IMG/VR virus record: IMGVR_UViG_3300033154_000314
Span: 1 to 23,029 of that record
Direction: 5' to 3' (one strand)
DNA length: 23,029 nt
From: a virus
Shown: positions 1,981 through 23,029 of the stretch, piece after piece
Numbering within the stretch: the stretch's first letter is position 1
Layout of the letters: each line of letters opens with the position of its first letter
Translations under genes and position numbers: made by a program
The notes under the pieces: model-generated
Seen by the model: the letters and a program-made list of their open reading frames with translations, nothing else
Databases searched by the model: none
What the model was told of the DNA's origin: nothing

Positions 1981-3492
1981 ATGAGGAGTTACCCGTCATA
2001 CTCAGCCTATGCATACCAGGGCTGGCAAGGAAGTTTTAGCAGCCTGGCGGAGAACCCAGACGATCCGGCCACGGGATCACCTCAGTATTGGGCGATGTGG
2101 GAGCGCTGGATTCCGATCCAAGATGTGCTCTTGGGCACAATCGGGATGAGAGCTCAGGCGGAGAAGTATCTGCCGAGATTGTGCAACGAGACTGACGAGT
2201 GTTGGCAAACGCGAATCAACAGATCTGTTGTTACGCCGCTGCTTGATCGCGTGATCAAGGCCTCTGTTGGTCTCATCCTGCGTAAGCCAATCATCCTAGA
2301 AGGCGGAGACGAAGGATACTGGGAACAATGGCGTGAGGATGTAGACCGTGCAGGGAGTTCACTCGACGGATTCATGGGGAAAATCCTGTATTCGGCGATA
2401 GCATACGGGCATTGTGGATTCATCACAGATTTCCCAAGCAACGATGCCAGAACCCTTCGCGAAGAACGAGAGTTGGCGGCCAAGCCATATTTCATACAGG
2501 AAGAGGCAGTAAACATCTTGGGATGGCGGCATAACGCCATCGAGAATCAAGGTGAACTACAGCAGGTGCGTTTCCGAGAGTTCATCACAGAACCTGAAGG
2601 CAGATTCGGAAACACTGTCAACCGTCAAGTGCGGGTGATGGAACCGGGCAGATTCGAAGTCTGGAGAGAGAATGAGAATGGAGCTGGCACTGGCAATTAC
2701 GTGCTCCATGACACAGGTACAGTCAGCGTTCCTGAAATCCCGCTCGCTGTGGTGTATTCGCAGCGGCAGAATGTTCTGCTATCTAGACCACCCCTAGAAC
2801 CATTGGCGCACCTGAATATTCAGCATTACCAGCTGCAGGCGTCTCTCATCAACAGCTTGCACGTTGCAGCATTCCCACTACTCATGCTCCAAGGATGGGA
2901 CGACACGCATAATGAACTGCAGAACCTCTCCGTAGGTAACGCGCTGGCTATGCCCCCTGAGGGTGGCGCTTCCTACGTTGAGCCATCCTCCAATGCTTTT
3001 GGCGCTCTACAGCTCGAGCTTGAGGCTCTGTCTCAACAAATCAGCACGCTTGGATTCACGATCCTGGCAAAGCCCAAAGCATCCGCAGAATCTGGACAGA
3101 AGGCTATCATCGATCGAGCAGATTCGAATAGCATGCTCGCGCAGATCAGTATCAGCCTGGAACAGGCGTTACAGCAGGCTATGGATTGGGCAGGCGCGTA
3201 TGCCGGGGTAGAACCGCCAACCGTCAGCATCGATCGAGACTTCAATGCAGGTGAGCTGGAGGCATCGACCATCGCTCAGTTCATCAGTCTCTATAACGCT
3301 AACGTCCTCGATAAAGAAAGCGTGCTCAAGCTTCTCATTCGGGGTGAAGTGCTGCAGGACGACACCGACATCGAAGAAATTTTGGAGAGCACAGAGCAAG
3401 AGGAGCTCAGCGGACTAGAAGTCGAGACCATGGAGCCAGAGCCACCACAGGACGTTGAAGAGGAGATCGACAGCGAGCTAAATGACGGATAA
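1981..3492 (+). CDS. Portal protein (DUF4055-like)
   Basis: The portal ring occupies one capsid vertex, admits DNA during packaging and connects the head to the neck. This 503-residue protein shows the layout of the DUF4055 portal family: an N-terminal segment in which a conserved block (RINRSVVTPLLDRVIKASVG) precedes LILRKPI, then the SLDGFMGKILYSAIAYGHCG helix followed by FITDFP. Later come LNIQHYQLQASL and a C-terminal acidic tail rich in Glu/Asp (from about residue 460). Its place between the terminase and the MuF-type gene is the standard one. It starts four bases after the preceding small gene and its end overlaps the next gene by 11 bases, implying translational coupling. Confidence 0.88.
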   Translation: MRSYPSYSAYAYQGWQGSFSSLAENPDDPATGSPQYWAMWERWIPIQDVLLGTIGMRAQAEKYLPRLCNETDECWQTRINRSVVTPLLDRVIKASVGLILRKPIILEGGDEGYWEQWREDVDRAGSSLDGFMGKILYSAIAYGHCGFITDFPSNDARTLREERELAAKPYFIQEEAVNILGWRHNAIENQGELQQVRFREFITEPEGRFGNTVNRQVRVMEPGRFEVWRENENGAGTGNYVLHDTGTVSVPEIPLAVVYSQRQNVLLSRPPLEPLAHLNIQHYQLQASLINSLHVAAFPLLMLQGWDDTHNELQNLSVGNALAMPPEGGASYVEPSSNAFGALQLELEALSQQISTLGFTILAKPKASAESGQKAIIDRADSNSMLAQISISLEQALQQAMDWAGAYAGVEPPTVSIDRDFNAGELEASTIAQFISLYNANVLDKESVLKLLIRGEVLQDDTDIEEILESTEQEELSGLEVETMEPEPPQDVEEEIDSELNDG

Positions 3493-5500
3493 AGAGATAG
3501 CCGCAGTCGTCTGGAATGTCCTCAAGCTGGAAGGCCTAGCGACAGAGATTTCGAAGCTGCCCGCTAAAGAATTACGTGCTGCAATCGCACGTACTAGATC
3601 GATAGTGGAGGGGATGCCCACAGGAGCACTCGAGAGGGAATTGGCCTACAAGCAGATAGAGTTCGTTGTGCGAGACGTATTTGAGCTGCCAGCCAGGCAA
3701 TTGACTGTAGATCTGCAAGCAGCACTGCCCCCAGAGGCTGCTGCGCAAGTGACGTGGGCAGCCAAATACATAGACGCAGTCCCTCCTGCCATCAATGAAA
3801 CAACAAGAGCCGCTCTGGAAGCCGTAGGCGATGTGCGGATCCTGAATAAGGGAGTTTCCGAGATAGCGCAGCCATTGGCACGGTCTCAGTGGAGACGTGT
3901 TAATAAGGTAGTTCGAGCTGGATTCTTAGAAGGGAAGACCAATAGCCAGATAGCCAAGGACATAGGCGCGACATACAAAGCCAGCAAAGCCGAGATCCGC
4001 GCCATCGCAAGAACCGCAGTCATGGCCACAGCCCAGGAGAGCCACGATCAATTCTGGGATGCTAATAGTGAGGTAATAGAAGGCTGGATATATGATGCAA
4101 GCTTTGATTTCAGGGTGTGCCCGATCTGTGCACCACTACACGGCACAAAAGCCAAGACCAGACCCGAGCTTGTTGAGAAGACAGGCCTACCACCCATCCA
4201 TCCCAACTGCAGATGTATGATTATTCCGCTGACCGGGATTGACACAGCGACGGGAGAGCGGAGCTATGTAGAGCTATCTAAGGACAAACCAGCGGAGGGG
4301 GATGGGGTTCGGGTCTTTAAGCAGAAGGTCAGGGGAGAAGATGGCGAAATGTATTGGAAAGTCGCACGTGAGATGCCCGCAGACTCGACTATGGGCGATT
4401 TCATAAATCGGGCGACCATATCTACGCAGGACAACATACTCGGAGTCAAGCGAGCGGCCAGATTTAGGAAGCTAATCAGAGGCGGCACCTCTCCACAGTC
4501 GGCCCTCGTCAAAGTCACGAAGAGCAGTGCACCTGCACCTGCACCTGCACCAAGACCAAGACCAGCGCCCAAACCCGCACCTACGCCCACACCGGCCACG
4601 GTTGCCGCTCAGAAGGCCGAGGAGAAGGCCCTTGCCAAGCTCTCAACCCAGATGGGCTCGGCAGAGCTTGATGAAATACTGAGAGCCACCAACAGAAAGG
4701 TAGTCTCCAAGACCAAGCTTCCAGATGTCGCTGATGTCAGAGGCATCAATCCAGTTCGGCTGTTCCACGACAGCAAGGACAGTCTTGGCCGTGGTGCATT
4801 CGGCGAGGCACGCCTGACGGATAGGGGTGTGGTCAAGCGAGGGTGGCTATCTAAATCCGAGATATCAATCACAGAGACGCTGAACGATACAGGGGTTACG
4901 CCTCGTCTGCTCGGCTCGGCCTATGAGGGGGATTGGAAGCCGAAGCTATTCCCTGGAATGAACGTCCGCAGGGGATACATGCTGTTGGAGAAAGCTCCCG
5001 GCGATTCGATGCAGAAGCTGATATCATACGGGGGAGGTCTGACGGACAAGCAGGCGAATAGTGCATTTGAATCCTTGATGCAAGCCCGAAAGAAGATCCA
5101 TCTGAAAGGCGTTGCACATCAGGATATGCATCCTGGCAACTTATTGTTTGATACAAAGAGCGACAAACTGACTGTCATTGATTTTGGTCTAGCACGCAAA
5201 GACTCGAGAGCGGCTCTAGTTGAGGCTCTTGGTGTTATGCAATCTCCTATCGGCGTTGTCGGCGATTTTCAATCCAAGACTTTGCTGACATACCTCAACA
5301 AGACTGGCGGTGTGAAAAAATCAGAGATGTGGAAGCAGTTCAAGCGGAATCGAAAATCTGTCATTGAAAAACTCGAGGCTGAGGGAGCTGGCACTCTTGT
5401 CAACTGGAGTATTCGTCAGCCACTCCCAAAGGTAGTGACAACGAACTTGTCGACTCAGCGGGCGCTAGAATTACTCAAGGAATTATATGAGGGCATTTAG
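3482..5500 (+). CDS. MuF/SPP1-gp7-type minor head protein fused to a protein-kinase-like domain
   Basis: The N-terminal half (about residues 1-260) is a phage head-morphogenesis (MuF) domain: a helical start, then IARTAVMATAQESHDQFW, then the Cys/His signature C213-P-I-C216 followed by H240-P-N-C243-R-C245. A Pro/Ala/Arg-rich linker lies at about 348-376. The C-terminal part carries kinase-fold motifs in order: glycine loop G436-RGAFG-E442, candidate ATP-binding Lys K452 in VVKRG, candidate helix-C Glu E460 or E465, catalytic loop H546-Q-D548-M-H-P-G-N553, and D567-F-G569 in IDFGLAR. This HxDxHPGN style resembles RIO, WaaP and aminoglycoside-kinase-like enzymes more than classical Ser/Thr kinases, and I see no APE motif. 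MuF proteins sit inside the capsid near the portal and often carry C-terminal effector domains. A kinase packaged in the virion and delivered with DNA is inference. The two domains share one unbroken frame. Confidence 0.9.
   Translation: MTDKEIAAVVWNVLKLEGLATEISKLPAKELRAAIARTRSIVEGMPTGALERELAYKQIEFVVRDVFELPARQLTVDLQAALPPEAAAQVTWAAKYIDAVPPAINETTRAALEAVGDVRILNKGVSEIAQPLARSQWRRVNKVVRAGFLEGKTNSQIAKDIGATYKASKAEIRAIARTAVMATAQESHDQFWDANSEVIEGWIYDASFDFRVCPICAPLHGTKAKTRPELVEKTGLPPIHPNCRCMIIPLTGIDTATGERSYVELSKDKPAEGDGVRVFKQKVRGEDGEMYWKVAREMPADSTMGDFINRATISTQDNILGVKRAARFRKLIRGGTSPQSALVKVTKSSAPAPAPAPRPRPAPKPAPTPTPATVAAQKAEEKALAKLSTQMGSAELDEILRATNRKVVSKTKLPDVADVRGINPVRLFHDSKDSLGRGAFGEARLTDRGVVKRGWLSKSEISITETLNDTGVTPRLLGSAYEGDWKPKLFPGMNVRRGYMLLEKAPGDSMQKLISYGGGLTDKQANSAFESLMQARKKIHLKGVAHQDMHPGNLLFDTKSDKLTVIDFGLARKDSRAALVEALGVMQSPIGVVGDFQSKTLLTYLNKTGGVKKSEMWKQFKRNRKSVIEKLEAEGAGTLVNWSIRQPLPKVVTTNLSTQRALELLKELYEGI
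4529..4551 (+). repeat. GCACCT hexamer repeat encoding the Ala-Pro linker
   Basis: Almost four perfect copies of GCACCT (23 bases) encode alternating Ala-Pro in the linker between the MuF and kinase-like domains. Slippage at this repeat could change linker length without breaking the frame, because each unit is two codons. Confidence 0.85.
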
Positions 5501-5652: not shown

Positions 5653-5853
5653 GTCTTCTAAAATGGGGCAAAACTGTATCCTTCCTAGATGGCCTTCCGC
5701 GACTCGTTCCATGAAATCGTGCCGGGGTATCGCCTCAATGGTGCGGTCCTTGTTTTCGCTGTAAAAGGCATTAAACAAGGCGGCATAGGCTCTGGCGCAA
5801 AGACTCTGGATATTGGCAATTTCGGCATCAGCCATATCACGTTTATTGAGCAT
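5647..5853 (-). CDS. Possible small leftward protein (conflicts with the start of the LamG-like gene)
   Basis: This leftward frame of 68 codons (ATG 5853, alternative ATG 5835) encodes a well-balanced sequence: MADAEIANIQSLCARAYAAL, then YSENKDRTIEAIPRHDF and a C-terminal CPILEDL. It ends tail-to-tail with the 5500-5652 gene, overlapping six bases. Against it, the frame lies codon-on-codon antisense to the first 55 codons of the rightward 5689-6897 gene. That phase is known to produce convincing shadow frames, because RNY codons read as RNY on the other strand. The rightward gene has no standard alternative start until GTG 5968, well inside apparent coding sequence. I cannot decide between them; both are listed and this one is the weaker. 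Confidence 0.35.
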   Translation of the reverse strand: MLNKRDMADAEIANIQSLCARAYAALFNAFYSENKDRTIEAIPRHDFMERVAEGHLGRIQFCPILEDL

Positions 5854-6897
5854 AAGAATGAATCGACCTGGCCGGTCCCAGAAAGCCTGGTCCCAGTTGA
5901 CGATATCGACGCGCTCTACAACACCCTAGAGCTTGCAGGGCTTTCTACCGTTGTCGATGGCGTCCTTGTGAATCCCTCGAATGTTGCCCTGCTCGAGTAT
6001 GGCGATAACTACCTAAACGCTGAGAGTGTCGGAGCGGATAGCCGTTTCATCTTCGAACGTTCAGATCGGGGTTCCTGGGTTCGCAATGGCGACAAATTTC
6101 TCGTGCCTAGCGCAGAATTTGACAATTTCAAAACCCTTGCGTTGGCTCGCCTCTCTACGGTGCTGGATGTTGTAGGACAGGTTTCCAATTCCTACATTCA
6201 CTTTGACGGCTCGAACGACTTCGTCGAATTCAGCGCAAAAGGGACGGCCAATGCCGGACTCCTGGACTGGACGCAAGACTGGTCAATCGGCATGACTCTA
6301 GTTGAGTTTGACGTCAAGTCTGACGGCAAATTTGTCACACTGTTCAAGAGTGGAGACAACGCGATTATGCTGCGTCGTGGTGGGTCTAACCACGGCCTGT
6401 ACGTGACTGGCAACGACGGTGCAACCAAGATCGGGGCAAACACCTGGTACGCGCCAAATGCGGGCGGCAAGATCCTGTTCGCTTATTACAAAGATTTCAG
6501 CCGCCTCCGGTACTACATCGGCAATGTAGACGGCACGTATGCACTACGGGCCAGCTATGTGGTCAACGTTGGCGCTATCGGTGGTAACACCCCCGGTAGT
6601 GAGTTCTCAATTGGCAAACGAGCTACCAACAACAACGTGGCCGAGAGTCTGATGTTCCATGGTGGTGCTAACAATGTCATTGTCGCCGCTGAACCTTTAG
6701 AAGGACCATATGTTCAAGAGTATTTCCAAGTCAACGAGGATTATGACCAAGCGAGTTTCTACCCCGACCTGACAAGTTGGGTCAAGATGGGTGAAGACAC
6801 CTACCCAACGGTAAGCGACACGCTAAATACTATGTCCGGCGGTGAACTAATCGGCGGCAACGAGAATGATTTTGTCCCAATTCCCGACCCTGCTTAG
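5689..6897 (+). CDS. Putative structural protein with LamG/concanavalin-like domain
   Basis: This is a 402-residue protein. From about residue 160 it shows the layout of a concanavalin A-like jelly roll: YIHFDGSNDFVEF as first strand, WSIGMTLVEFDV, FVTLFKSGDNAIMLRR, LYVTGNDG, then ILFAYYKDFSRLRYYIGNVDG and a late FSIGKRATN. These are the usual strand blocks of LamG-type carbohydrate-binding modules. The stretch before it (VPVDDIDALYNTLELAG..STVVDGVLVNPSN) may be an attachment domain. Position among head genes suggests a capsid decoration or head fibre that may bind surface glycans; this is inference. The start is uncertain: ATG 5689 is the only ATG for a full-length product, but its first 55 codons compete with an antisense frame. 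Confidence 0.72.
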   Translation: MAFRDSFHEIVPGYRLNGAVLVFAVKGIKQGGIGSGAKTLDIGNFGISHITFIEHKNESTWPVPESLVPVDDIDALYNTLELAGLSTVVDGVLVNPSNVALLEYGDNYLNAESVGADSRFIFERSDRGSWVRNGDKFLVPSAEFDNFKTLALARLSTVLDVVGQVSNSYIHFDGSNDFVEFSAKGTANAGLLDWTQDWSIGMTLVEFDVKSDGKFVTLFKSGDNAIMLRRGGSNHGLYVTGNDGATKIGANTWYAPNAGGKILFAYYKDFSRLRYYIGNVDGTYALRASYVVNVGAIGGNTPGSEFSIGKRATNNNVAESLMFHGGANNVIVAAEPLEGPYVQEYFQVNEDYDQASFYPDLTSWVKMGEDTYPTVSDTLNTMSGGELIGGNENDFVPIPDPA

Positions 6898-11760: not shown

Positions 11761-12564
11761 ATGGCTGAGATTTGCGGAGATTCTGTCCTGACTGGACAGG
11801 ATGGCTCCATTGAGTTTAAACCACCTGGAACGACTTTTTGTCTGGGAGATTTTTCAGACTTCGGAACAGATGGTACCACCACCCATATCACTGTTCCATG
11901 CACGCATGACTTCCGGGTCGGCGACATCGTCTGCCTGACCGAAGGCGCTGATGCTAACATTGACAGTTCCTTCACTGCCAGCACGTCAGGGAGTCCCAGC
12001 CCCTATTACATCGTTGCAGTCGACGCGGACTGGATTGAACTGTCGGCGACAGCTGGTGGAACTGCTATCGCTGCAGCTGGCGATGGTGGAACGGGTTCTG
12101 CCAACGCAGGAATCATCGAGATTGAGCTCTGCGATTTCTATGCCGTCTGCGGCGTCCGCGAATTCTCGCTGGATATCTCCCGCGAGGAGCTAGATATCAC
12201 AACGCTTCCTTGCTTCGACAGCGTGGCTGACGGATGCAGCAAGCTTGCGAAATTCAGGCAGACCCAATCTGGTTACGCATCCGCCACGGGCACTATGACC
12301 GTGTACTTCACATGCGACCAGAGCAACATCTCCAACCGTCTTCTGGGCTCTTCAGTCCTGAAGGACCAGACTGGAGCTCGTGCCAAACTATACGTTTGCA
12401 CGCAGGTAGATTCCAACGGTGTGGATGACGACGCTTCGCTGTTTGTCGATGCCTTCATCAACATTTCGGGCATGTCATTCTCCGTCAACCCCGACGATCC
12501 AACCTCTGCTGAACTCACTTTCTCTGTCAAGGAGATGGTGTCAGCGTTTGGTCTTCTGGCCTGA
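11761..12564 (+). CDS. Major tail (tube) protein
   Basis: This protein polymerises as rings around the tape measure to form the tail tube. It has 267 residues. The N-terminal 120 contain repeated Gly/Ser/Thr-rich beta stretches and a segment HDFRVGDIVCLTEG...YYIVAVDADWIEL, possibly an added surface domain. The tube domain follows from about residue 125: VREFSLDISREELDITTLPC (about 132-151), then SGYASATGTMTVYF and late strands SLFVDAFINISGMSFSVNPD. The REF-S-L-x-I-S...LD-x-TT signature recurs in two genes at 20.2 and 20.6 kb. It has the strongest ribosome binding site of the window before it and a terminator after it, and precedes the chaperone and tape measure genes, as usual. Confidence 0.85.
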   Translation: MAEICGDSVLTGQDGSIEFKPPGTTFCLGDFSDFGTDGTTTHITVPCTHDFRVGDIVCLTEGADANIDSSFTASTSGSPSPYYIVAVDADWIELSATAGGTAIAAAGDGGTGSANAGIIEIELCDFYAVCGVREFSLDISREELDITTLPCFDSVADGCSKLAKFRQTQSGYASATGTMTVYFTCDQSNISNRLLGSSVLKDQTGARAKLYVCTQVDSNGVDDDASLFVDAFINISGMSFSVNPDDPTSAELTFSVKEMVSAFGLLA

Positions 12565-13208: not shown

Positions 13209-16076
13209 TTGGCACAGGAATATTCAGTCGATATTGTTGCAAAGGTTCTCGGCGGGAGAGCGGTCAGAGCCTTAAACGAAGAGCTAGAAAAAAGTACGCA
13301 ACTTCTCAAGGCAAATAGGAAAGCATATACAGGAGTAGGTGCTGCATCGAGTAAGGCCTCGAACAACGTCAAGCAGTTTTCAAGATCGACAAAGACTGCA
13401 ACGGCCTCCACGCAAGGATTGTCAAATGCTGTCAGAGGGCTTGGCTCTGCTTTGGCCTCTGCTGCTATCGGCCAGAGGCTGGGCAATGCTATCGGCGATG
13501 CACGACAGCTGGAATTGTCGGGCAAACGGCTCGATATGCTGACCAAGGAGTATGCTCAGTTTGCAGGCATCCAGAAGGAAGCTGCAAGGCTGGCAGATCT
13601 ATTCCAGGTCAGCGTCGCAGAGTCTTCAAAATCGCTGTTCAACCTGGGTTCCAGACTTGGAGCGTCTGGTGCTGATTTGACCGATATCGTCTCCGTCTAT
13701 GAAGGCTTAAATTCAGCACTGGTCGTTACCGGCAGGAGCAGTCAAGAAGCCGCAGCAGCTAGCTACCAATTAGCGCAGGCTTTGGGTTCTGGTTCGCTGA
13801 CTGGTGACGAGCTTAAGACAATTTCGGAGACCTTGCCAGAACTCTTGAACGAAATCGCAAGAGCGGCTGGCAAGAGTGCTACCGAAGTCCGTCAGATGGC
13901 TAAGGATGGGGAATTAACCACCGACGTCATCATCAAAGCAACCTCGGCCTTGCGTGACAAGTATGGGCCTGCAGTAAGAGACAATATCCAGGTCAGTCAA
14001 AGATTCAGCAACGCTCTGAGTGGCTTGTCTGAGAAGATCGGCCAGAGCCTACTGCCCGTAGTCAATCCATTGCAGGAGACGCTAGCCAGCCTGCTGAACG
14101 TGGTGATCAAGCTGCCCGATCCACTCATCGCAATCGGCACTGCGGCCACCGTGGCGGCAGGAGGGTTCCTGGCGATTTCAGCTGCGCTGTCCTTGCTTGG
14201 ATTGCCTGGCGTCATTGCCCTATTCGGGAAATTGGCGACTACGCTGGCAGCATTCTCTGGAATCACTGCGACTGTTGTCACCGGATTTACGGCAGCAGGT
14301 GGTGCGATTAAAGCCACAACGGTCGCGGTGAATGCTCAAACAGTAGCGTTAGGTGCTTTGAAAACAGCGATGGCCGCCACACCATGGGTAGCCGCAGCAA
14401 TCGCAGTTGCAGCTGTTGGCTACGCGACCTATCAGACCGTTGATGCCGTCAATGATTTTAACCGAGTTCTTAGACAGTCTCCACTCAAAGAGGTTGAAGA
14501 CAAAATCGAGGAGCTAGAGAAGGAAATAGTCAAGGCCGAGAACAAAACGGTTTCTTGGACTGAGCAGATCTTCGACTTCATTTTTGGTGTAGATGGCGCT
14601 TCGACTGCGGTAGATGGCCTTTCCAATTCCATTGATCGGCTGAATAAAAGAAAGATTCAATTGACAGATCTGCGGCCAGAACAGGGTGCAGATCTGGACA
14701 TGGAAGAGATCAAGAGACTTGCAGACATATATGACCCCGTAGTACCAGAAACTCCAAAACCACCAACCCCCACGGGTGGAGGAGGAGGAGGTGCACCTGC
14801 TACAGACGATTTAGAATCCCTTCAAGCAACGCTGGCCTTAAAGACTAAACTTGCACCGCTGCAAGAGCGGATCAACCTGGCAGTGCTGAGAGGAGACGAG
14901 CTCACAAAAGCAAGGCTTGAAGGAGAGAAAGAGATGCTCATTTTGATGGATCAGCAAGAAGCTGCTCTGCGTGGTTTGAATACTGAAGAAGGTAAATCTC
15001 TCCAAGCACGGATCAACCAGCTGGATCTGGACGAGCAGGCACGAGAGAATGCAAAGAATCTAACCCTGAAGACAAAAGAGCTGGCGGAGGCCGAGCAGCA
15101 AAGATTGGAGACGGTCAGCGCTACATTGCAACCGATTAGGGACGAAGTCGAGCTATTGCAGGCCAAGCTGAATGGCAACGAAGACCTGATCCGCCAGAAT
15201 CAAGAGATTCTGCGGCTCAAGAAAGCTATCAAAGAGGCCGGAGGGACCGCTGAAGATGTGGCCGAGGCTTCTAGCCTGGTCAAGGAGCGAGATGCATTAA
15301 GAGAACGTGCGGAGGCGGCAGACAAGCTGAAGGAATCCTATAAGCAATTGGCCACCAGCATTGCAACTTCTTTGACTAGCGCCTTCAGATCCGTCGTAAC
15401 TGGCGCACAATCGGCACAACAGGCCCTGTCTAGCGCCTTCAAGGGGATCGCCGATGCCTTCATCGGCATGGCGATGAAGATGATTCAAGAATGGCTGGTG
15501 ATGCAAGCACTCGGAATGCTGAAACTCTTCGGTGGTGGCGTTCCTGGAGGTTCTCCAACCCCATTGGTGGACAGTTTGTCTAGAAATGCCGGTTCACCAT
15601 TCGAAGCGGGCGGGCAGATACCATTCTTCGGAACACAACAGCCAAGGATGTTTGCTGATGGTGGTAGGCCACCGCTGAATGAAGCCAGTATAATCGGAGA
15701 AAGAGGGCCTGAGTTATTTGTTCCAGATAGCGCAGGAACCATTCTTCCTAACGATGCCTTTGCTGCAGCCCGTAACGCAATGGGCGGTGGTGGTGGAGAC
15801 GGCGACTCCGGCGTTGTTGACGAAGCGTTTCAAGCTTCTGGAGATTCTATTAGTTCAGTTCGTGAACGCCTGATACAGAATGAAATGCAAGCAACCTCTG
15901 CAAAATATACGAATGGTCCCATCACCTTCGAGACGTACCAGATCGGAAGTATGGATGTAGTCACCCGCGAAGAAGCAGAAGCTATCGGGCAAGCAAGTGC
16001 TCAGCAAGCTAGGGCGCAAGTTTTTAGCGACATGCGGAACCGCCCCGCTGTCCGCCGACAAATCGGAGTTAAGTGA
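13209..16076 (+). CDS. Tape measure protein
   Basis: This protein sets tail length and later leaves the tube to help DNA cross the cell envelope. At 955 residues it is the second longest gene of the window. The N-terminal third has the tape-measure domain: SYQLAQALGSGSLTGDELKT, then LPELLNEIARAAGKS and GPAVRDNIQVSQRFSNALSG. Two hydrophobic stretches lie at about 305-365 and 391-412 and could insert in the host membrane. A Pro/Gly linker (about 515-530) and a long coiled-coil part (about 540-720) follow, and the C-terminus has the typical IIGERGPELFVPDSAGTILP block. The start is TTG at 13209, since this gives the complete N-terminus and no ATG lies nearby in frame. An approximate Shine-Dalgarno AAGGACGGG precedes it. 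Its TGA overlaps the next ATG. Confidence 0.93.
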   Translation: MAQEYSVDIVAKVLGGRAVRALNEELEKSTQLLKANRKAYTGVGAASSKASNNVKQFSRSTKTATASTQGLSNAVRGLGSALASAAIGQRLGNAIGDARQLELSGKRLDMLTKEYAQFAGIQKEAARLADLFQVSVAESSKSLFNLGSRLGASGADLTDIVSVYEGLNSALVVTGRSSQEAAAASYQLAQALGSGSLTGDELKTISETLPELLNEIARAAGKSATEVRQMAKDGELTTDVIIKATSALRDKYGPAVRDNIQVSQRFSNALSGLSEKIGQSLLPVVNPLQETLASLLNVVIKLPDPLIAIGTAATVAAGGFLAISAALSLLGLPGVIALFGKLATTLAAFSGITATVVTGFTAAGGAIKATTVAVNAQTVALGALKTAMAATPWVAAAIAVAAVGYATYQTVDAVNDFNRVLRQSPLKEVEDKIEELEKEIVKAENKTVSWTEQIFDFIFGVDGASTAVDGLSNSIDRLNKRKIQLTDLRPEQGADLDMEEIKRLADIYDPVVPETPKPPTPTGGGGGGAPATDDLESLQATLALKTKLAPLQERINLAVLRGDELTKARLEGEKEMLILMDQQEAALRGLNTEEGKSLQARINQLDLDEQARENAKNLTLKTKELAEAEQQRLETVSATLQPIRDEVELLQAKLNGNEDLIRQNQEILRLKKAIKEAGGTAEDVAEASSLVKERDALRERAEAADKLKESYKQLATSIATSLTSAFRSVVTGAQSAQQALSSAFKGIADAFIGMAMKMIQEWLVMQALGMLKLFGGGVPGGSPTPLVDSLSRNAGSPFEAGGQIPFFGTQQPRMFADGGRPPLNEASIIGERGPELFVPDSAGTILPNDAFAAARNAMGGGGGDGDSGVVDEAFQASGDSISSVRERLIQNEMQATSAKYTNGPITFETYQIGSMDVVTREEAEAIGQASAQQARAQVFSDMRNRPAVRRQIGVK

Positions 16077-16543
16077 TGCTGGCAATAGGGATCTATTTGA
16101 AACTGCTGGACTCTTCCGGCAATGACACTGGCTATCAATTCCAAAACTTCTTTCAAGGCGAAACTAGAACCTACAATGGCGTTGACTATGTTTTTGGTTC
16201 ATTTGGCTTTAGTGGCGGAACGTTAGATCTGGAAGGCGGAAATATTTCGGCTTCGCTGATCTTTTCTGTTAATCCTGTTTCGTTGTCAGTATTTGGTCAA
16301 GCCGTGAACGATTTTTGGTTAGCTGAAATCCGCACGGTATGGCTTGAGCCTGAAGCGTTAACAGAAACAGCTCAGCATTCAGAAGAGCTTTACGCCATTA
16401 CAGGGTATAACCACGACGGCAACCAGCTCTCTGTTCGGCTTGGTAGCCCAATAGACGCAGTGCAGAGCAACGTACCACGAAGGGTTTTAACAACAGCCCT
16501 GGTTGGCGAACTTCCAAGTACCGGTCAGATTAACCTTACCTAA
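16076..16543 (+). CDS. Minor tail / tail tip protein (gpL-like, putative)
   Basis: This 155-residue protein starts at ATG 16076, overlapping the tape measure TGA by one base; GTG 16073 would add one residue. It begins as a beta-rich domain (YNGVDYVFGSFGFSGGTLDL) and ends with the informative block LSVRLGSPIDAVQSNVPRRV..LVGELPST. That R-L-x-SP-x-D-A-x-x-x-x-x-P-R pattern is found in lambda gpL-like minor tail proteins, which link the tape measure to the tip. No Fe-S cysteine set, as in lambda gpL, is visible. Position directly after the tape measure and before the J-like hub supports it. From here codons become visibly A/T-richer. Confidence 0.72.
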   Translation: MLAIGIYLKLLDSSGNDTGYQFQNFFQGETRTYNGVDYVFGSFGFSGGTLDLEGGNISASLIFSVNPVSLSVFGQAVNDFWLAEIRTVWLEPEALTETAQHSEELYAITGYNHDGNQLSVRLGSPIDAVQSNVPRRVLTTALVGELPSTGQINLT

Positions 16544-19500
16544 TGGATATCACTAAACGCCCTTTCGTTCTGCTTCCTCAGGACCGCGTAATCATGGAGA
16601 TTACGGGCATGGATCGTGAGCAATATCGGGATTTTTGCTTGCAATGTTATATGGCCGGGCGAAGCATACCAAGCACCGATCCTGTCGCCTTTGATCCCTT
16701 TACGGCAGTTGCTTATTTGATAATCGGAATTGCCTTATCATTTGCAGCCTCATTGCTGGCACCAAAGCCACGAGTAGAAGAAATTACGCCTCAACGAGAA
16801 GAAGGTGGGCAGAATTTTGTTAATGGTCGAAAGTCAGCCCCTACAAGCGGATTTGATAGCGTTCAGAACGTTGTCGAAGTGGGCTCTGTAATTTCCATTG
16901 TTTATGCCAACAGGCGGGAGATCAATGGGATTTGGTATGGAGGAGTAAGAGTTAATACCAATTTATTGTGGAGCCAATTGTATTCGATTGGCGGTGGGCA
17001 GTTGTTACGGGCGCTTTTTTCTGTAAGTGAAGGAAATGTACCAACGCCTGACCCAGAACAATTCGCGATTGGAAACAATATCATCCGCAATTTTGATTTA
17101 GCCAAGAACGACGTATCAAGAGTAAGTCTCTATTACGTCAACGGATCCGATGCTAATAATCGCATTGTGTCAACAGACCATATTGCTGGCCGGAATGCAG
17201 ATAGCGATTTAGGAAATGCCGAAAACGATGGCGGAACGAATGTCTTTCAAGCCAGAACTGCTACCGGATGGGCGGATGATTTTTGCTCCGTCGTTGTTCC
17301 TTCAAATCAAACATCATTAGGGCTAAGTGGATTCATTGGCAATAACATGCCATTCAGGCCGAATCCTAGGATCAAGCCAACCGAAAACTATGACAACGAA
17401 CCGCAGAAACCTGATCCCCAAGGGAAGACAGAGCGGGCGCATGACGTTTGGAAGTATTACGGGCGGTGTGGTGTCAACAAATTAAATGGCAATCCGACGA
17501 CAGATGAATTTATTAATCTAGTTCCTGGCGATCAAATTACTTATTCTTTATTCTCAGATAGCGATAATGATGGCGTGTTTCAATATCAAATATCAGCGAA
17601 AGACGGTTTCTCCTATACAAACGACATTGCCGACAGTGTCGCCAGCAGGCAAAGCAGCTATGATGACCAAATCGTCCTAGGAGACAAATATTTAATTGGC
17701 AACGCAATAGGGGTTTGCGTTAGTCGCACTAATCAACCTTTCGTTTCTGAGGTAGATAATACGCCTGTGGGAGGCGGACAAACGGTAACAGCAGTATTTG
17801 AGATAACTGAGCCAGGGGGCATCCATGCTTACGACTCCCAAGGACTCCATCCCGCCCTCGGTCCGTATGATGATTACAACAAATTTGTAGGGAATAATTA
17901 TCCCGCGTATGGTCCTCGCGTTAACGCGACGCTCACATCCCACATTTTCCGTTTAACTGAGGCTTCATTTACAACGGAAAGAAGCACAAGGTACATTGAA
18001 GTTGGACTTAAAAGCCGCGTTAATCTTCAGATTAATGGTATCTGTTACTTTAGAGGAATTGCATACGATGATGAAGCTAGAACTTTGAGTAAAATTGATA
18101 GTGAGAGGGTAATAGACAACATTGTTTTTACTAACGGGAACTTTACTTCTCCCGAAGCTAGGTATAGTGGGTTCCGCGTTAAATTCCGTAGCACATCTAC
18201 AGCTGCCTACTCAGTGGTGCCAATGATTTTCTTGGTTCGCTCGCAGCAAAGCACAGACGTATTTAATTATTTGCGATTTGAAATGGATACTTCCAACACT
18301 TGGGAGTTTCAATTAACACCCGCTTCCTCTTGGGAGATAAGAAACGGTACAGATGATTTGCATGTACTGGACTATAAGAGAAACAATCGCGTGACGGTAA
18401 GCACATTGTTAGGTATGAATATAGTCTTTACGGGTTTGGCAAATATTGCAAGAAACGCTGATAATTTTGCGATCCCACCTCTAACAACAATTGACGGAAC
18501 AGAATTGGATGACAACAATGGTCCTGATCTGTCTTTTGATGATCTTGTGGACGGTAGAGGATATTACGGAGATGCGTTCGCCAGGATTGCTGAAGGATTC
18601 ATGTTTGAGGAGATGACAACAACAGCTAATCAACCTGAACACAGCATTGTTTACGTTAATGTTCAAACGACAAATTCGCAAATACCTCGCTATGACAACA
18701 TTGCGATGGTCGGAATGAATCTTCGGAGTAGCACCGAAATCCGAGAGCTTCAGCAGTTTAGTGTTTATGTCAATCAAGGAATTAATTCAACGAACCTCTT
18801 CCCAGAGGTGTTGCTTGATATGTTTACGAATACAAGATACGGCCTAGGAAACGTTTTAAATACAGCTCAAATCGATACGGCAAGTTTTGCCGCCATGGCC
18901 ACGTGGTGCGAAAATCGAAAGTATTTCTTCGATGGCGTAATAGATAGCAAGCTTAATATTCGAGATTGGGGGACCATTACGGCTAATAATTACTTGCTTG
19001 ATTTAATCGTCAGAAATGGACAGTTTGCTTTGCAACCCGTTGCTGATTTTGACACAAAGCCTGTGATTACTGCTCTGTTTACGAGTGGCAATATTTTAGA
19101 CAATACCTTTGAATTTACATCGGCTGATGAGCAAGACCGGATCAGGCCAAGAGTTTCTGTTAAATGGCGAGAGGAAAAATTAGACACAAATAATGGGCTG
19201 TTTCCTGTCGTTCGGCAAGTTACCGTAAGAGAAAGTGATACGGCGGAGGATGCCCCATTAGAAACATTGGACATTTCGGCGTATGCAACTTCTCAGAAGC
19301 AGGCCATTGATCTTGCTAAATGGACGTGCAGGCGAAGGCGGTATATCACGCATTCAATCAAATTTGAAACGACACCAACCCAGGCTGCCTTAGACATCGG
19401 AGCGGTTTTTAATTTGGGGATGGAAACAATCGCATACGATCAGCCTCAAAACGGAGCTATTGCCGCTGATGGGACCGTTACCAGTTGGCCGCCGTTAAGC

Positions 19501-19788
19501 AATGGAACTTACGACGCATTGACATGGACTGGCACTGCAACAACAGTTGAGGAGAGGACAATCAAAATTGAAAACGGAAAAGCCGTGGGGATTCAAAACG
19601 CAGTTTTCTGCATTAAGAGTGGTATCCAATCAGTGGAGACTTACAAGACGCAGGCTCTTAACTACACAGAAGATGGAAACATCAACGTGGAGGCAACAGT
19701 TTATCCCTGTGACAAAGATGGAGCTAGCCTGCTAACGATGGGCTGGGATGATCCCAGCAACTGGAGCATTGAGGGGCAAAGAACATGA
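16543..19788 (+). CDS. Tail tip / central hub protein (gpJ-like)
   Basis: This 1081-residue protein forms the tail tip and probably contacts the receptor. It starts as TAATG on the previous stop. After a polar start, residues 53-72 form one hydrophobic segment (AYLIIGIALSFAASLLAPKP), as also found in J-type or I/K-J fusion tips. Next comes VVEVGSVISIVYANRREING..YGGVRV, the start of the hub. A long divergent middle (about 240-600) contains beta-rich stretches not seen in lambda J, possibly carbohydrate-binding insertions. The region from about 680 is J-typical: GDAFARIAEGFMF, LLDMFTNTRYGLG, CENRKYFFDGVIDS, WREEKLDTN, and WTCRRRRYITHSI. Codon third positions are strongly A/T compared with neighbours, suggesting recent exchange. 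It ends in an ATGA junction. Confidence 0.85.
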   Translation: MDITKRPFVLLPQDRVIMEITGMDREQYRDFCLQCYMAGRSIPSTDPVAFDPFTAVAYLIIGIALSFAASLLAPKPRVEEITPQREEGGQNFVNGRKSAPTSGFDSVQNVVEVGSVISIVYANRREINGIWYGGVRVNTNLLWSQLYSIGGGQLLRALFSVSEGNVPTPDPEQFAIGNNIIRNFDLAKNDVSRVSLYYVNGSDANNRIVSTDHIAGRNADSDLGNAENDGGTNVFQARTATGWADDFCSVVVPSNQTSLGLSGFIGNNMPFRPNPRIKPTENYDNEPQKPDPQGKTERAHDVWKYYGRCGVNKLNGNPTTDEFINLVPGDQITYSLFSDSDNDGVFQYQISAKDGFSYTNDIADSVASRQSSYDDQIVLGDKYLIGNAIGVCVSRTNQPFVSEVDNTPVGGGQTVTAVFEITEPGGIHAYDSQGLHPALGPYDDYNKFVGNNYPAYGPRVNATLTSHIFRLTEASFTTERSTRYIEVGLKSRVNLQINGICYFRGIAYDDEARTLSKIDSERVIDNIVFTNGNFTSPEARYSGFRVKFRSTSTAAYSVVPMIFLVRSQQSTDVFNYLRFEMDTSNTWEFQLTPASSWEIRNGTDDLHVLDYKRNNRVTVSTLLGMNIVFTGLANIARNADNFAIPPLTTIDGTELDDNNGPDLSFDDLVDGRGYYGDAFARIAEGFMFEEMTTTANQPEHSIVYVNVQTTNSQIPRYDNIAMVGMNLRSSTEIRELQQFSVYVNQGINSTNLFPEVLLDMFTNTRYGLGNVLNTAQIDTASFAAMATWCENRKYFFDGVIDSKLNIRDWGTITANNYLLDLIVRNGQFALQPVADFDTKPVITALFTSGNILDNTFEFTSADEQDRIRPRVSVKWREEKLDTNNGLFPVVRQVTVRESDTAEDAPLETLDISAYATSQKQAIDLAKWTCRRRRYITHSIKFETTPTQAALDIGAVFNLGMETIAYDQPQNGAIAADGTVTSWPPLSNGTYDALTWTGTATTVEERTIKIENGKAVGIQNAVFCIKSGIQSVETYKTQALNYTEDGNINVEATVYPCDKDGASLLTMGWDDPSNWSIEGQRT

Positions 19789-20165
19789 CCGCCGATTTTC
19801 CTGCGCTATGCCCCAGTAAAAGATCATTGCAAGCAGGGCAGTATCCAACCAAACGATTTGACAGCATCTCTGGTGCGTCAGTAACGCGCCTGTATGGCAG
19901 CAAAGCATTCAATGCTGAACTGCAGCTGACATACCAGCTAAGCGATGATGACACGGCAGCATTGCTAAAGTCTTATCACGACAGCTACGGTGGTGCTGAT
20001 ACGCTTAATTTGCCGGAAGCGGTCTATGGCGGCATGAGCGAAAACTTGCAAGCTCAAGTTCGTGACTACTACTCATGGCGCTGGAACGCTCCACCATCAG
20101 TTGAAAGCCTTTTTCCAGGTCGCTCTAGAATCCTAGTAACCCTGATCGGAACACTGGACGGTTGA
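19785..20165 (+). CDS. Small tail tip protein of unknown exact role
   Basis: This 126-residue protein overlaps the hub gene by four bases (ATGA). It begins MTADFPALCPSKRSLQAGQY, contains RFDSISGASVTRLYGSKAFN..LQLTYQLSDDDTAALL, the block YHDSYGGADTLNLPEAVYGG, and ends SLFPGRSRILVTLIGTLDG. The Y-G-x-x-x-x-x-A-x-L-x-L-x-Y pattern and late beta strand look like small M-like minor tail proteins. No enzyme motif is seen. It keeps higher G/C at third positions than the hub gene, so the compositional change ends at this junction. A minor tail part is likely from position; the specific role is unknown. Confidence 0.6.
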   Translation: MTADFPALCPSKRSLQAGQYPTKRFDSISGASVTRLYGSKAFNAELQLTYQLSDDDTAALLKSYHDSYGGADTLNLPEAVYGGMSENLQAQVRDYYSWRWNAPPSVESLFPGRSRILVTLIGTLDG

Positions 20166-20166
20166 T

Positions 20167-20559
20167 ATGGCAGTTCTAACAGGCGCTGATGGTCAACTCG
20201 TTTATAACAACCGACCTGTTGCAAAGTGCCGTGAGTGGAGTATCAGCACGTCAAAAGACGCGCTTGAGACGACATGCTTGGCAAGTTTTGACCGCAGCTA
20301 CGTTGAAGGACTGCGTGGCACGACTGGGTCAGCAACCATCCTTTACGACCCAGAGGAGGCGTCAGGCAACAATCTGCTGAACTCGATCAATGCCAATGGG
20401 CAAAATGACACGGTCGATTTTGTGCTGTCACGCGCTGACGGCAAGCGTTTTCGCTGCAGTGGTTTTCTTACTTCAGTCAGCCCAAGCGTGACCGTTGGTG
20501 CCGTTCAAGCAGTCAGCGTCAGTTTCCAAGTTTCGGGCGCTGTTGATGGTGAGTTCTAA
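20167..20559 (+). CDS. Tail-tube-like protein (second tube-fold gene)
   Basis: This 130-residue protein starts one base after the preceding stop. It reads as a compact tail-tube domain: VYNNRPVAKCREWSISTSKD, ALETTCLASFDRSYVEGLRG, SGSA-like GTTGSATILYDPEE, VDFVLSRADGKRFRCSGF, and a last strand VQAVSVSFQVSGAVDGEF. The CREWSISTS...LETT motif matches the major tail protein at 11761 and the next gene. Tube-fold proteins near the tip usually form distal rings. It may therefore be a minor tube ring or a tip collar. It ends with TAATG overlap with the next gene. Confidence 0.7.
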   Translation: MAVLTGADGQLVYNNRPVAKCREWSISTSKDALETTCLASFDRSYVEGLRGTTGSATILYDPEEASGNNLLNSINANGQNDTVDFVLSRADGKRFRCSGFLTSVSPSVTVGAVQAVSVSFQVSGAVDGEF

Positions 20560-21707
20560 TGGCAGTCCTTGGCACTGGCGGGAGATTAGTTCTCAGGCGT
20601 GAGGCACCTGCTCCATGCGTTCTGCTCGATTCGGGGCTGAACTGGGAGAACGATACTTATATCAGCATCTGTCCGGGATATCTCAATGGCGATCGCATCG
20701 CTGCTGACTGTTTGCCTGTTATTCGCCCTGGTCAATATCCAGGCAACCCCTGTAACTGGTCGTCATATCAAGGCGGTCGCTGGTACTTAGGACCAAACCG
20801 AACACAGATCGCTAGCGATAGCGATCAGTTTTATAAGCAAGGCGGTGAGCAGTACCCAGATGGCCAGGCTGATGATGCCGCCCAGTTCTATGCCCGCGTG
20901 GGCGACACGTCGGGTGGCGATGAAATTGTCGGTTGTGTTCCAGATGGATATTGGATTCACATTGATGATTTGGGTCGAGTCTCTTTCTATGAAAGCCGTT
21001 GTGCAGCAATGGCTGGGTGTCCTAGCAATCGTTTGGACCTGGCCAATATTGCTGGTGCGGTGACAATCGCTCCGTATGGCAGTCTCGATTATCTGAATGC
21101 GGTTTGGGACTGTATTGCTGGTTTGAGTGGTGACTATGAATTCAGCGATGTATCGGATTCAGTCACTCTTGAGAGCATCTGCGAAGACGCACCTGACTAC
21201 ATCCAACCTGTGCCGAACCCCAACACAGAGGCTTATGCCTACAATAACGCGGATGTGGAACCACGGCCTGCAAATAGTCCTGCGCCTTATTGGGAATGCG
21301 TGGCTGACTTACGTGAGTGGTCACTTAATTTGTCTGCCCCAGAGGTGGACACCACAGCTGTCGCTGAGAAATTTGGTAATGCCGTGAAGAGTCTTGTGAG
21401 CGGTGGCGGCAGCACTGAATTCTTCATTGACAGGAAGTGCTTTAGCGATGGAACGACCAACGGCATGACGCTGATGCAGTTACTGCTGATGACGGAGCAG
21501 GGCTGCAAGGCAAGCGCTCAGTTTTACGTTCTTCAGCGGCCTGGCGAATGCGGCGCGGATGAATGCAGCGGGCTGATCAACGGCGATCTCTACTACGAGA
21601 CTGATTTGCTGATAACTCAGACCGCTGTGAATATGCGACCTACTGAGCTAGTTGTGGGAACTGCTCAATTCGTCTCCACAGGTCCGATTAAACTAAAAGA
21701 ATCCTAA
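20559..21707 (+). CDS. Two-part tail protein with Cys-rich N-terminus and tube-like C-terminus
   Basis: This is a 382-residue protein. The N-terminal 210 residues are rich in Cys, Tyr, Gly and Asp (CPGYLNGDRIAADC, YPGNPCNWSSYQGGRWYLGP, GCVPDGYWIHIDDLGRVSFY) with no membrane segment, suggesting an extracellular disulfide-stabilised domain, perhaps for binding. From about residue 245 it carries a tube-like domain: DLREWSLNLSAPEVDTTAVA (250-269), SLVSGGGSTEFFIDRKCF, LMQLLLMTEQGCKASAQFYV and a final ELVVGTAQFVSTGPIKLKE. The same REWSL signature occurs in the two other tube-like genes. A decorated distal tube ring or tip spike is the simplest reading. It starts in a TAATG overlap. The function of the N-terminal part is unknown. 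Confidence 0.68.
   Translation: MAVLGTGGRLVLRREAPAPCVLLDSGLNWENDTYISICPGYLNGDRIAADCLPVIRPGQYPGNPCNWSSYQGGRWYLGPNRTQIASDSDQFYKQGGEQYPDGQADDAAQFYARVGDTSGGDEIVGCVPDGYWIHIDDLGRVSFYESRCAAMAGCPSNRLDLANIAGAVTIAPYGSLDYLNAVWDCIAGLSGDYEFSDVSDSVTLESICEDAPDYIQPVPNPNTEAYAYNNADVEPRPANSPAPYWECVADLREWSLNLSAPEVDTTAVAEKFGNAVKSLVSGGGSTEFFIDRKCFSDGTTNGMTLMQLLLMTEQGCKASAQFYVLQRPGECGADECSGLINGDLYYETDLLITQTAVNMRPTELVVGTAQFVSTGPIKLKES
20807..20826 (+). repeat. Perfect inverted repeat within a coding region
   Basis: GATCGCTA and TAGCGATC form a perfect eight-base inverted repeat around a GCGA loop. It lies inside the 382-residue tail protein gene, with no T-run after it, so it is not a normal terminator. It may be chance or an RNA hairpin affecting translation. 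Confidence 0.6.
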
Positions 21708-21718
21708 CTGAGTTAAGA

Positions 21719-23029
21719 GTGGCTGAGATTATCCGTGCTGGACTGCCCGACAGTTTAGGTCATATCGATACGACCCAAGGCGACTTCAGGACTCAAATTG
21801 ACGCGATCACGGATACAGTCCGCCAGTTAGGCGGAAATCCAAACGTTTCTGCCACCACCAGCGATCCACTAAACGCGCCGTTTGTTCTGTACGTTGATCC
21901 AAATATCGGCTCAGATGTATTTGTATCTGGCGATTACACCACAACACCCAATACGACCTATGAAGACAAGATGCGGCGAATTTCGCTGCAACGACTTCAA
22001 TGCGGATATACCCAGAGCAGACCTTTCCGCACTATCAACCGTGCCATCATCGAGGCGGGAATTATTACCAGCCGGGATTACCTAGACCTGAATCCGGCAC
22101 CTTGTGGCGATCTGGTCAGCATTGTACTTTCGCCCGCTGTTCACACAATCCTGAACGACGTAGGGTCTGGCACGACAACGCCATGGGTTGACGGTCAAGA
22201 TCCGACCGATGCACAGCTTATTGAGTTCAATAACAACAACACCGGAGGTGTTCTGTTGCCTCGGGGCGTGTCGCTAATCAGCTTGGATCTGCGTAAAACA
22301 ATCCTCAGACCAAACGCTGTTCCAGCTCCAGCTAATGAGGCACCCGACCTATCAAACCGTCGTGCATGTTTCAAACTGACTGGCGGCTGCTATTGCTACG
22401 GGTTCACCGTTATGGATAAGCAGGGCAGCAGTGCTAGCCACCACCTGCTGGACGTATTTCAATTCACCACTCAAGCTGAACTTGATCAGTTTTATGGCAA
22501 GATCGTTAGTTCGTTTGGCGAGGCAGTGTTTACTGACTTTGTTAACGATGATTATGCGGAAGCGCGAACAAGTGAATATCAAATTGTTGGTCCACAGCCT
22601 GCTAATTCAACACCTGCTGTTGACACGATTTCGTCATCTAGCCCTTACATCTACAACATTTCAATTCGCAGCGTCCTCGGGATGTGCGGGCTATTGGCCG
22701 ATGGAGCGCGAGTGCCGGACTCGTTCAGATCTTGCGTGATCGCTCAATACACAGGTGTTTCACTACAAAAAGATTTCACATCATGGCAAATTTATGCCGG
22801 TGGAACTTGGTCAACCGCTGCGTCTGCTGGTGACATTATTGGCGCGGATCCTAATGATGTTCGCGTGGATCCACAACGTCGGTCTGTGCATATCCGAGCA
22901 GTCAATAATGCGGTCATTCAAGAAGTCTCAGTTTTTGCAATTGGGCAGGCTATTCACCATCTATCTGAGTCAGGTTCTAACGTCACTATCACAAATAGCA
23001 ACAGTAATTTTGGAGGCTGTGCATCATTA
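21719..23029 (+). CDS. Virion adhesin/fibre-like structural protein, 5' part (runs off right edge)
   Basis: The frame is open from GTG 21719 through the last base (437 codons), so the gene continues outside. The product starts MAEIIRAGLPDSLGHIDTTQ, followed by an Asp/Asn/Thr-rich part with VLYVDPNIGSDVFVSG and RPFRTINRAIIEAG, which matches the first turn of right-handed beta-helix (pectate-lyase-like) phage proteins (F-R-T-I-x-x-A-I-x-x-A). Next come IVLSPAVHTI, GVLLPRGVSLISLDLRKTIL and LTGGCYCYGFTVMD, regular short strands fitting a beta-helix. From memory, this layout is common in large cyanophage structural proteins; that is the main host clue here. GTG is chosen as the first plausible start after the previous stop (12 bases on); the Shine-Dalgarno is weak. 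A tail fibre or receptor-binding role is inferred from position. Confidence 0.8.
   Translation, partial: MAEIIRAGLPDSLGHIDTTQGDFRTQIDAITDTVRQLGGNPNVSATTSDPLNAPFVLYVDPNIGSDVFVSGDYTTTPNTTYEDKMRRISLQRLQCGYTQSRPFRTINRAIIEAGIITSRDYLDLNPAPCGDLVSIVLSPAVHTILNDVGSGTTTPWVDGQDPTDAQLIEFNNNNTGGVLLPRGVSLISLDLRKTILRPNAVPAPANEAPDLSNRRACFKLTGGCYCYGFTVMDKQGSSASHHLLDVFQFTTQAELDQFYGKIVSSFGEAVFTDFVNDDYAEARTSEYQIVGPQPANSTPAVDTISSSSPYIYNISIRSVLGMCGLLADGARVPDSFRSCVIAQYTGVSLQKDFTSWQIYAGGTWSTAASAGDIIGADPNDVRVDPQRRSVHIRAVNNAVIQEVSVFAIGQAIHHLSESGSNVTITNSNSNFGGCASL

Follow-up and report, generated by a model that had tools for sequence, protein, structure and literature searches.

Tail genes of the window

The window, that is the whole stretch of DNA analysed, is a linear IMG/VR virus record of 23,029 bases which carries a standard siphophage structural module. 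Its genes follow the order terminase, portal, MuF-like protein, capsid, neck genes, major tail protein (MTP), chaperone, tape measure, P156, J, M126, T130, T382 and fibre, the head and neck genes being named by their position and by reading of the sequence. The features relevant to the tail are the following:

11761..12564, + strand: MTP, the major tail (tube) protein, 267 aa, its tube domain split by an insert at about residues 20-126
16073..16543, + strand: P156, a probable gpL-type hub component, by profile match (E 3.6e-10) to Mic1_31, annotated 'Phage tail L'
16543..19788, + strand: J-type central hub/fibre protein, 1081 aa (phrog_27845, E 5e-23; phrog_31 'central tail fiber J', E 7e-10)
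19785..20165, + strand: M126, a minor tail protein of the phrog_15525 family, possibly a gpM-type distal tail protein
20167..20559, + strand: T130, a 130-aa tail-tube-fold protein without insert (Pfam PF16460; phrog_10528/158 major tail protein; invariant M126-T130-T382 order)
20559..21707, + strand: T382, a 382-aa tail-tube-fold protein with a tube domain made of residues 1-14 and 246-382
20601..21293, + strand: Cys-rich insert of T382, about residues 15-245, which by alignment follows the N-terminal hairpin and precedes the REWSL strand
21075..21275, + strand: module of about 65 aa within the T382 insert, residues 173-239
21719..23029, + strand: tail fibre (FIB), cut by the contig end (phrog_529 tail fiber, E 1e-68)

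MTP adjoins the chaperone and tape measure genes on their 5' side and occupies the usual place of a major tail protein, from tail terminator to chaperone/tape measure. T130 and T382 lie past the hub, outside that place and, in the gene maps of all loci, also outside the tape measure-to-hub interval where Dit or gpM genes are found.

Relatives of MTP were found in S-2L (34% identity to its 'major tail protein', E 7e-21 by tblastn) and KBS-S-2A, and relatives of the hub in S-CBS1, S-CBS3, S-LBS1 and Mic1, J being homologous to tail proteins of the first three. Relatives of the fibre, which span 900-1600 aa, were present in 458 phage records, mostly of Synechococcus and Prochlorococcus phages. 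Since all three sets of relatives belong to cyanobacterial phages, the host of this group of uncultured phages is probably a cyanobacterium.

Two other genes of the window were recorded. The 672-aa MuF-like protein (3482-5500) has a C-terminal half that looks kinase-type by eye (IHLKGVAHQDMHPGNLLFDTKSDKLTVIDFGLA), apparently a MuF-fused kinase-like domain. A 402-aa ORF (5689-6897) between the MuF-like and scaffold genes shows, by eye, LamG/concanavalin-like lectin features, an odd location for a receptor-binding-like protein.

Homology of MTP, T130 and T382

An earlier note on this DNA had proposed that MTP, T130 and T382 share a tube-like domain and a REWSL...DTT signature. The three open reading frames and their quoted peptides were found in place, and profile-profile comparison of the cores bore out the homology. 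The motif reads REFSL at residue 133 of MTP, REWSI at residue 22 of T130 and REWSL at residue 252 of T382; the pattern RE[WF]S[LI] occurs in just these three of the 136 ORFs of the window, where shuffled ORFs gave an average of 0.028. Pairwise BLASTP among the three proteins was marginal. When the cores were aligned as profiles with hhalign, E values of 3.5e-16 (T130-MTP), 5e-12 (T382-MTP) and 2.5e-6 (T382-T130) were obtained, and in alignments of the whole profiles, over about 110-125 columns, the motif columns coincided. Furthermore, iterated HMM searches seeded with MTP, T130 or T382 converged, with about 190 ORFs apiece.

The assignment to the tail-tube superfamily comes through T130, which matches PF16460 (lambda-type tail tube) with 34.5 bits, above the curated gathering cutoff of 28.4 (E 2e-8); 28 of 32 T130 homologues also match this family at E <= 0.1. 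In the same Pfam scan MTP and T382 taken alone fall below the cutoff and are joined to T130 via profile-profile alignment. The named matches of T130 and T382 in Pfam and PHROG scans are tube families only, and the profiles of T130, T382, MTP, M126 and P156 found no relevant PDB relative by sequence. It is almost certain that MTP, T130 and T382 are three homologous tube-fold proteins.

The idea that the motif is a special signature of these three genes did not hold. The same motif is present in the tube proteins encoded upstream in P-HS2/MED4-184-like phages and in S-H1 (in MED4-184 and S-H1 as RSWSLSVSKDTLETT, RSWNLTLDKAVLETT and the like), which makes it the usual signature of the family. As read from these alignments, REWSL...DTT is the ordinary first core strand of the family together with the start of a long loop, and is not private to the window phage.

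Two further candidates were rejected. M126, considered as a fourth tube homologue, is matched by tube-family profiles via a shared module and not via the core; and Mic1_20, a 'tail tube' gene located well past the hub, gave no match to the T130, T382 and MTP profiles.

Predicted folds and the split domain of T382

Structure predictions, which the earlier note had proposed, and fold searches with the models were run for MTP and T382. The AlphaFold2 models had mean pLDDT values of 68.5 (MTP) and 65 (T382, much of whose insert is unreliable in the model), and the order of the core strands was identical in both. Each model contains the beta-sandwich, single helix, N-terminal hairpin and core of a tube fold. 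The first Foldseek matches were mostly tail tubes and Hcp, namely 80alpha, SaPI1, Sf11, NF5, lambda and R4C for T382, and GTA, monocin and lambda for MTP. The strength of these matches is moderate (lowest E values 1.6e-3 for T382 and 2e-4 for MTP; Z about 8.6), and the assignment of the tube fold rests on them together with the sequence profiles.

In both models the motif lies in the first core strand (T382, E246-257; MTP, E127-145), a structurally equivalent position as the earlier note had supposed, and the beta strand it had placed ahead of each stop codon was seen in the MTP and T382 models. Its location of the T382 tube domain at the C-terminus has to be amended: the core is C-terminal, but the first ~14 residues (MAVLGTGGRLVLRR) belong to the domain too, as they align with the N-terminal hairpins of T130 (MAVLTGADGQLVYNN) and MTP (DSVLTGQDGSIEFK), and the VIA-align rows of T382 against tubes cover residues 4-382. 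T382 is consequently predicted to be one tube domain interrupted by a Cys-rich insert of about 230 aa, at about the same site as the insert of MTP. The Cys-rich character of this ornament was confirmed, with 9 of the 14 Cys of T382 falling in residues 20-245; most insert Cys sit in columns where Cys recurs among homologues.

A by-eye likeness between the two inserts (GDxV ... YYV/YWIHID) had raised the possibility of one inherited domain. hhalign gave an E value of 0.32, and 0.046 once the extra loop of T382 was trimmed, and kinship of the inserts was not supported.

Two features of individual T382 genes were also noted. The otherwise distant loci L016 (T382 at 1460-2467) and L092 (T382 from 7496) have an insertion of about 24 Gly/Gln-rich residues (for example VVTQAGDQLITQSGDDFF) at the same spot of the T382 insert. 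In L092 (7496-8723) the T382 reading frame is in pieces, by sequencing error, decay or frameshift.

The M126-T130-T382 cassette

In IMG/VR, M126 precedes and T382 follows T130 for 67 distinct T130 sequences, the exceptions being contig edges, call gaps and T130-like genes that act as the major tube protein in other phages. The order hub-M126-T130-T382-fibre is constant in the fetched loci wherever the contig permits. At 105 of 125 T130-T382 junctions the genes overlap by 1 nt, and in the window the start of T382 overlaps the stop of T130 (TAATG), an arrangement from which the two genes are predicted to be translationally coupled. T130 hardly varies in length around its median of 131 aa, T382 proteins are 292 to 399 aa long, and both are under purifying selection, with median dN/dS of 0.12 (T130) and 0.09 (T382).

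A strong Shine-Dalgarno sequence, GAGGAG, lies 5' of MTP, whereas T130 and T382 have no clear one and show only stop/start overlap or 1-nt spacing. These weak signals, set against the strong one of MTP, fit the production of few copies.

An expanded IMG/VR scan yielded 149 relatives of T382. With three diverse T382 queries, no tblastn match was obtained in 50,697 phage records, and none of 45 pattern matches in bacterial and archaeal genome contigs was a relative.

The tip in cultured relatives

S-CBS1, S-CBS3 and S-LBS1 encode a 312-aa MTP, P156, J and M126 (two copies), followed by a small fibre gene and by lysis genes. T130, T382 and FIB were each absent from these three related genomes at E <= 1, and since all are missing together, the three genes seem to have been gained or lost jointly. 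The T130-T382 pair is not strictly required for this type of hub, since it is lacking in phages that share the hub. In Mic1, relatives of M126 are found both 5' of the gpL-like gene and 3' of the hub. From these gene maps P156 is suggested to be a hub part of gpL type, with members of the M126 family able to act as distal tail protein; T130 and T382 would then be additions.

Link with the fibre and putatively exposed modules

The gene after T382 is FIB for 81 of 86 distinct T382 sequences; the remainder comprise three contig ends, one broken gene and one other gene. This last case, L068, has an unrelated tail fibre after T382, as expected if the pair serves whichever fibre is present. Similarity of FIB to the fibres of cyanomyophages begins only at residue 96-102, and its private, siphovirus-specific N-terminus of about 95 residues is a candidate anchor.

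The module at residues 173-239 of the T382 insert is missing from 10 of 84 T382 proteins. The same module, over about 60 aa, recurs as an N-terminal part of M126 in L073 and L136 (E 4e-20), where M126 is extended by some 60 aa (L073:13884-14459; L136:3211-3786); L136 has it in both M126 and T382, so that it is common to two different tail-tip proteins. In L137 (2234-5863), M126 reaches 1209 aa through an extension of about 1080 aa made of Ig/Hoc-like repeats, with about two Cys per repeat. The common module and this extension suggest that T382 and M126 are exposed, adjacent parts of the tip.

Age and origin of the pair

The earlier note had suggested duplication of the resident tube gene. Our core tree, which is unrooted, is based on 136 columns and contains some long branches, speaks against a recent duplication of this kind: T382 forms one clade with support of 100/100, the MTPs stand apart, and a single T130 clade was not rejected (AU p 0.605). 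Moreover, several cassette-bearing phages have another MTP, the phrog_290 protein of 312 aa common to S-CBS1/3 and S-LBS1. Because the lineages are separate and MTP is swapped while T130-T382 stays, the split must be old, and the pair was not recently copied from the resident tube gene. As judged from the tree and from synteny, both T130 and T382 are ancient paralogues of the tail-tube protein of siphophages, and the pair goes with the tip and not with the shaft.

Another set of tube paralogues was seen in Synechococcus phage S-H1 (L010:13510-14351), where two tandem genes annotated as hypothetical proteins lie 5' of the tape measure gene; they perhaps form a two-component tube.

Comparison with known systems

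The earlier note started from the premise that a siphophage has one tube protein and one distal tail protein. This premise does not apply to lambda, in which gpV, gpM and the N-terminal domain of gpL all have the tube fold (PMC10721106). T130 and T382 resemble the lambda-type tube (gpV N-domain; PF16460, Phage_TTP_11) in strand order and motif, and the models of MTP and T382 match the gpV, GTA, 80alpha, R4C and SPP1 tubes. Unlike that tube, T130 and T382 are encoded past the hub, on top of a major tube gene, and T382 has a 230-aa insert. In their presumed function they would be like lambda gpM and T1 gp37, in which a bare tube fold is used once at the tip beside the hub (PMC10721106, PMC11945409); T130 and T382 differ from them in being encoded after J, in a group that has M126 as another candidate, and in Pfam and PHROG scans no sequence kinship with gpM was detected.

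Decorations are common on tube and distal proteins (PMC9022992, PMC13243795). The T1 tube protein gp41 has an Ig domain at residues 16-94, flanked by sandwich residues 2-15 and 95-113 (PMC11945409). Going by this description, it occupies the position of the MTP and T382 inserts, which follow the N-terminal hairpin. YSD1/Chi tubes also carry their decoration, an inserted Ig-like domain, within the tube domain as T382 does, although the YSD1 insertion is described between strands 4 and 5, unlike that of T382 (PMC9022992). The insert of T382 differs from those of T1 and YSD1 in its larger size, its richness in Cys and its location on a second protein linked to the hub. The Dit of the marine siphophage R4C, a tube-like tip ring with an outward insertion domain, would be functionally like T382 (PMC10276861); the gene order is different, and Pfam and PHROG scans of T130 and T382 gave no kinship with Dit.

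Proposed role of T130 and T382

We favour, with a probability of about 0.5, the interpretation that T130 and T382 are low-copy accessory rings of the tail tip which serve the fibre; we infer their position, symmetry and docking of the fibre. According to this interpretation, the two genes are kept as a translationally coupled pair beside the tail tip and fibre genes, and each product would form a low-copy ring, or both a mixed ring or collar, on or around P156, J and M126. T130 would be a plain ring, whereas the outward-facing, Cys-rich insert of T382 (230 aa) would provide a platform on which the large fibre docks via its N-terminal ~95 residues. The pair would supplement the standard distal tail, and the major tube would not be replaced. 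The composite distal collar of T130 and T382 put forward in the earlier note is plausible. Gene order is no more than a hint of virion position. More tentatively, and at somewhat longer odds than the accessory rings themselves, T130 and T382 may form an extra tube-fold collar of the tip, of a kind that no cultured phage is known to have, whose Cys-rich insert is an exchangeable dock, letting a siphophage use fibres of the cyanomyophage type.

T130, or T130 with T382, could instead be the true hexameric distal tail protein, a Dit/gpM equivalent that joins the tube to the trimeric hub and happens to be encoded after the latter. The presence of P156 (gpL-like) as the only gene between tape measure and hub would agree with this, as would the bare tube fold of T130, like that of lambda gpM and T1 gp37 (PMC10721106, PMC11945409). 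We consider it unlikely, given that another protein does this job in the S-CBS phages and S-LBS1, which have the same P156-J-M126 set without T130 and T382, and that M126 relatives of Mic1 hold the gpM-like place 5' of the gpL gene.

That the two proteins are minor or alternative subunits of the shaft, in a composite tube with variant rings, appears improbable. The nearest named relatives of T130 are indeed major tube proteins, and the tandem paralogues of S-H1 indicate that two-gene tubes may exist; yet the T130/T382 loci stay with hub and fibre while the type of MTP changes (MTP family or 312-aa phrog_290), their translation signals are weak, and the T382 insert is large and variable. Least probable of all, at less than one chance in ten, is a role as assembly factors, such as a tube initiator or a chaperone-like protein, that are not parts of the virion. 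Clusters of this kind do include non-structural tail genes, and gpK was not found in lambda virions (PMC10721106), but the full tube core is kept, and a place in the virion would be in keeping with the Cys-rich insert and with the module that a further tail protein also has.

Significance

The re-use of the tube fold in phage tails is known, usually in proteins so diverged that structures alone reveal it. T130 and T382 are real, conserved proteins that fall within this known phage biology. What is new is that all three tube proteins of one tail can still be recognised as such at the sequence level, that two of them are encoded past the hub and occur along with a large fibre, and that one has a Cys-rich insert. 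If the fibre collar is real, it would be a natural modular adaptor explaining how a siphophage acquires fibres akin to the cyanomyophage ones, and would offer a testable case of tail-tip growth by paralogy.
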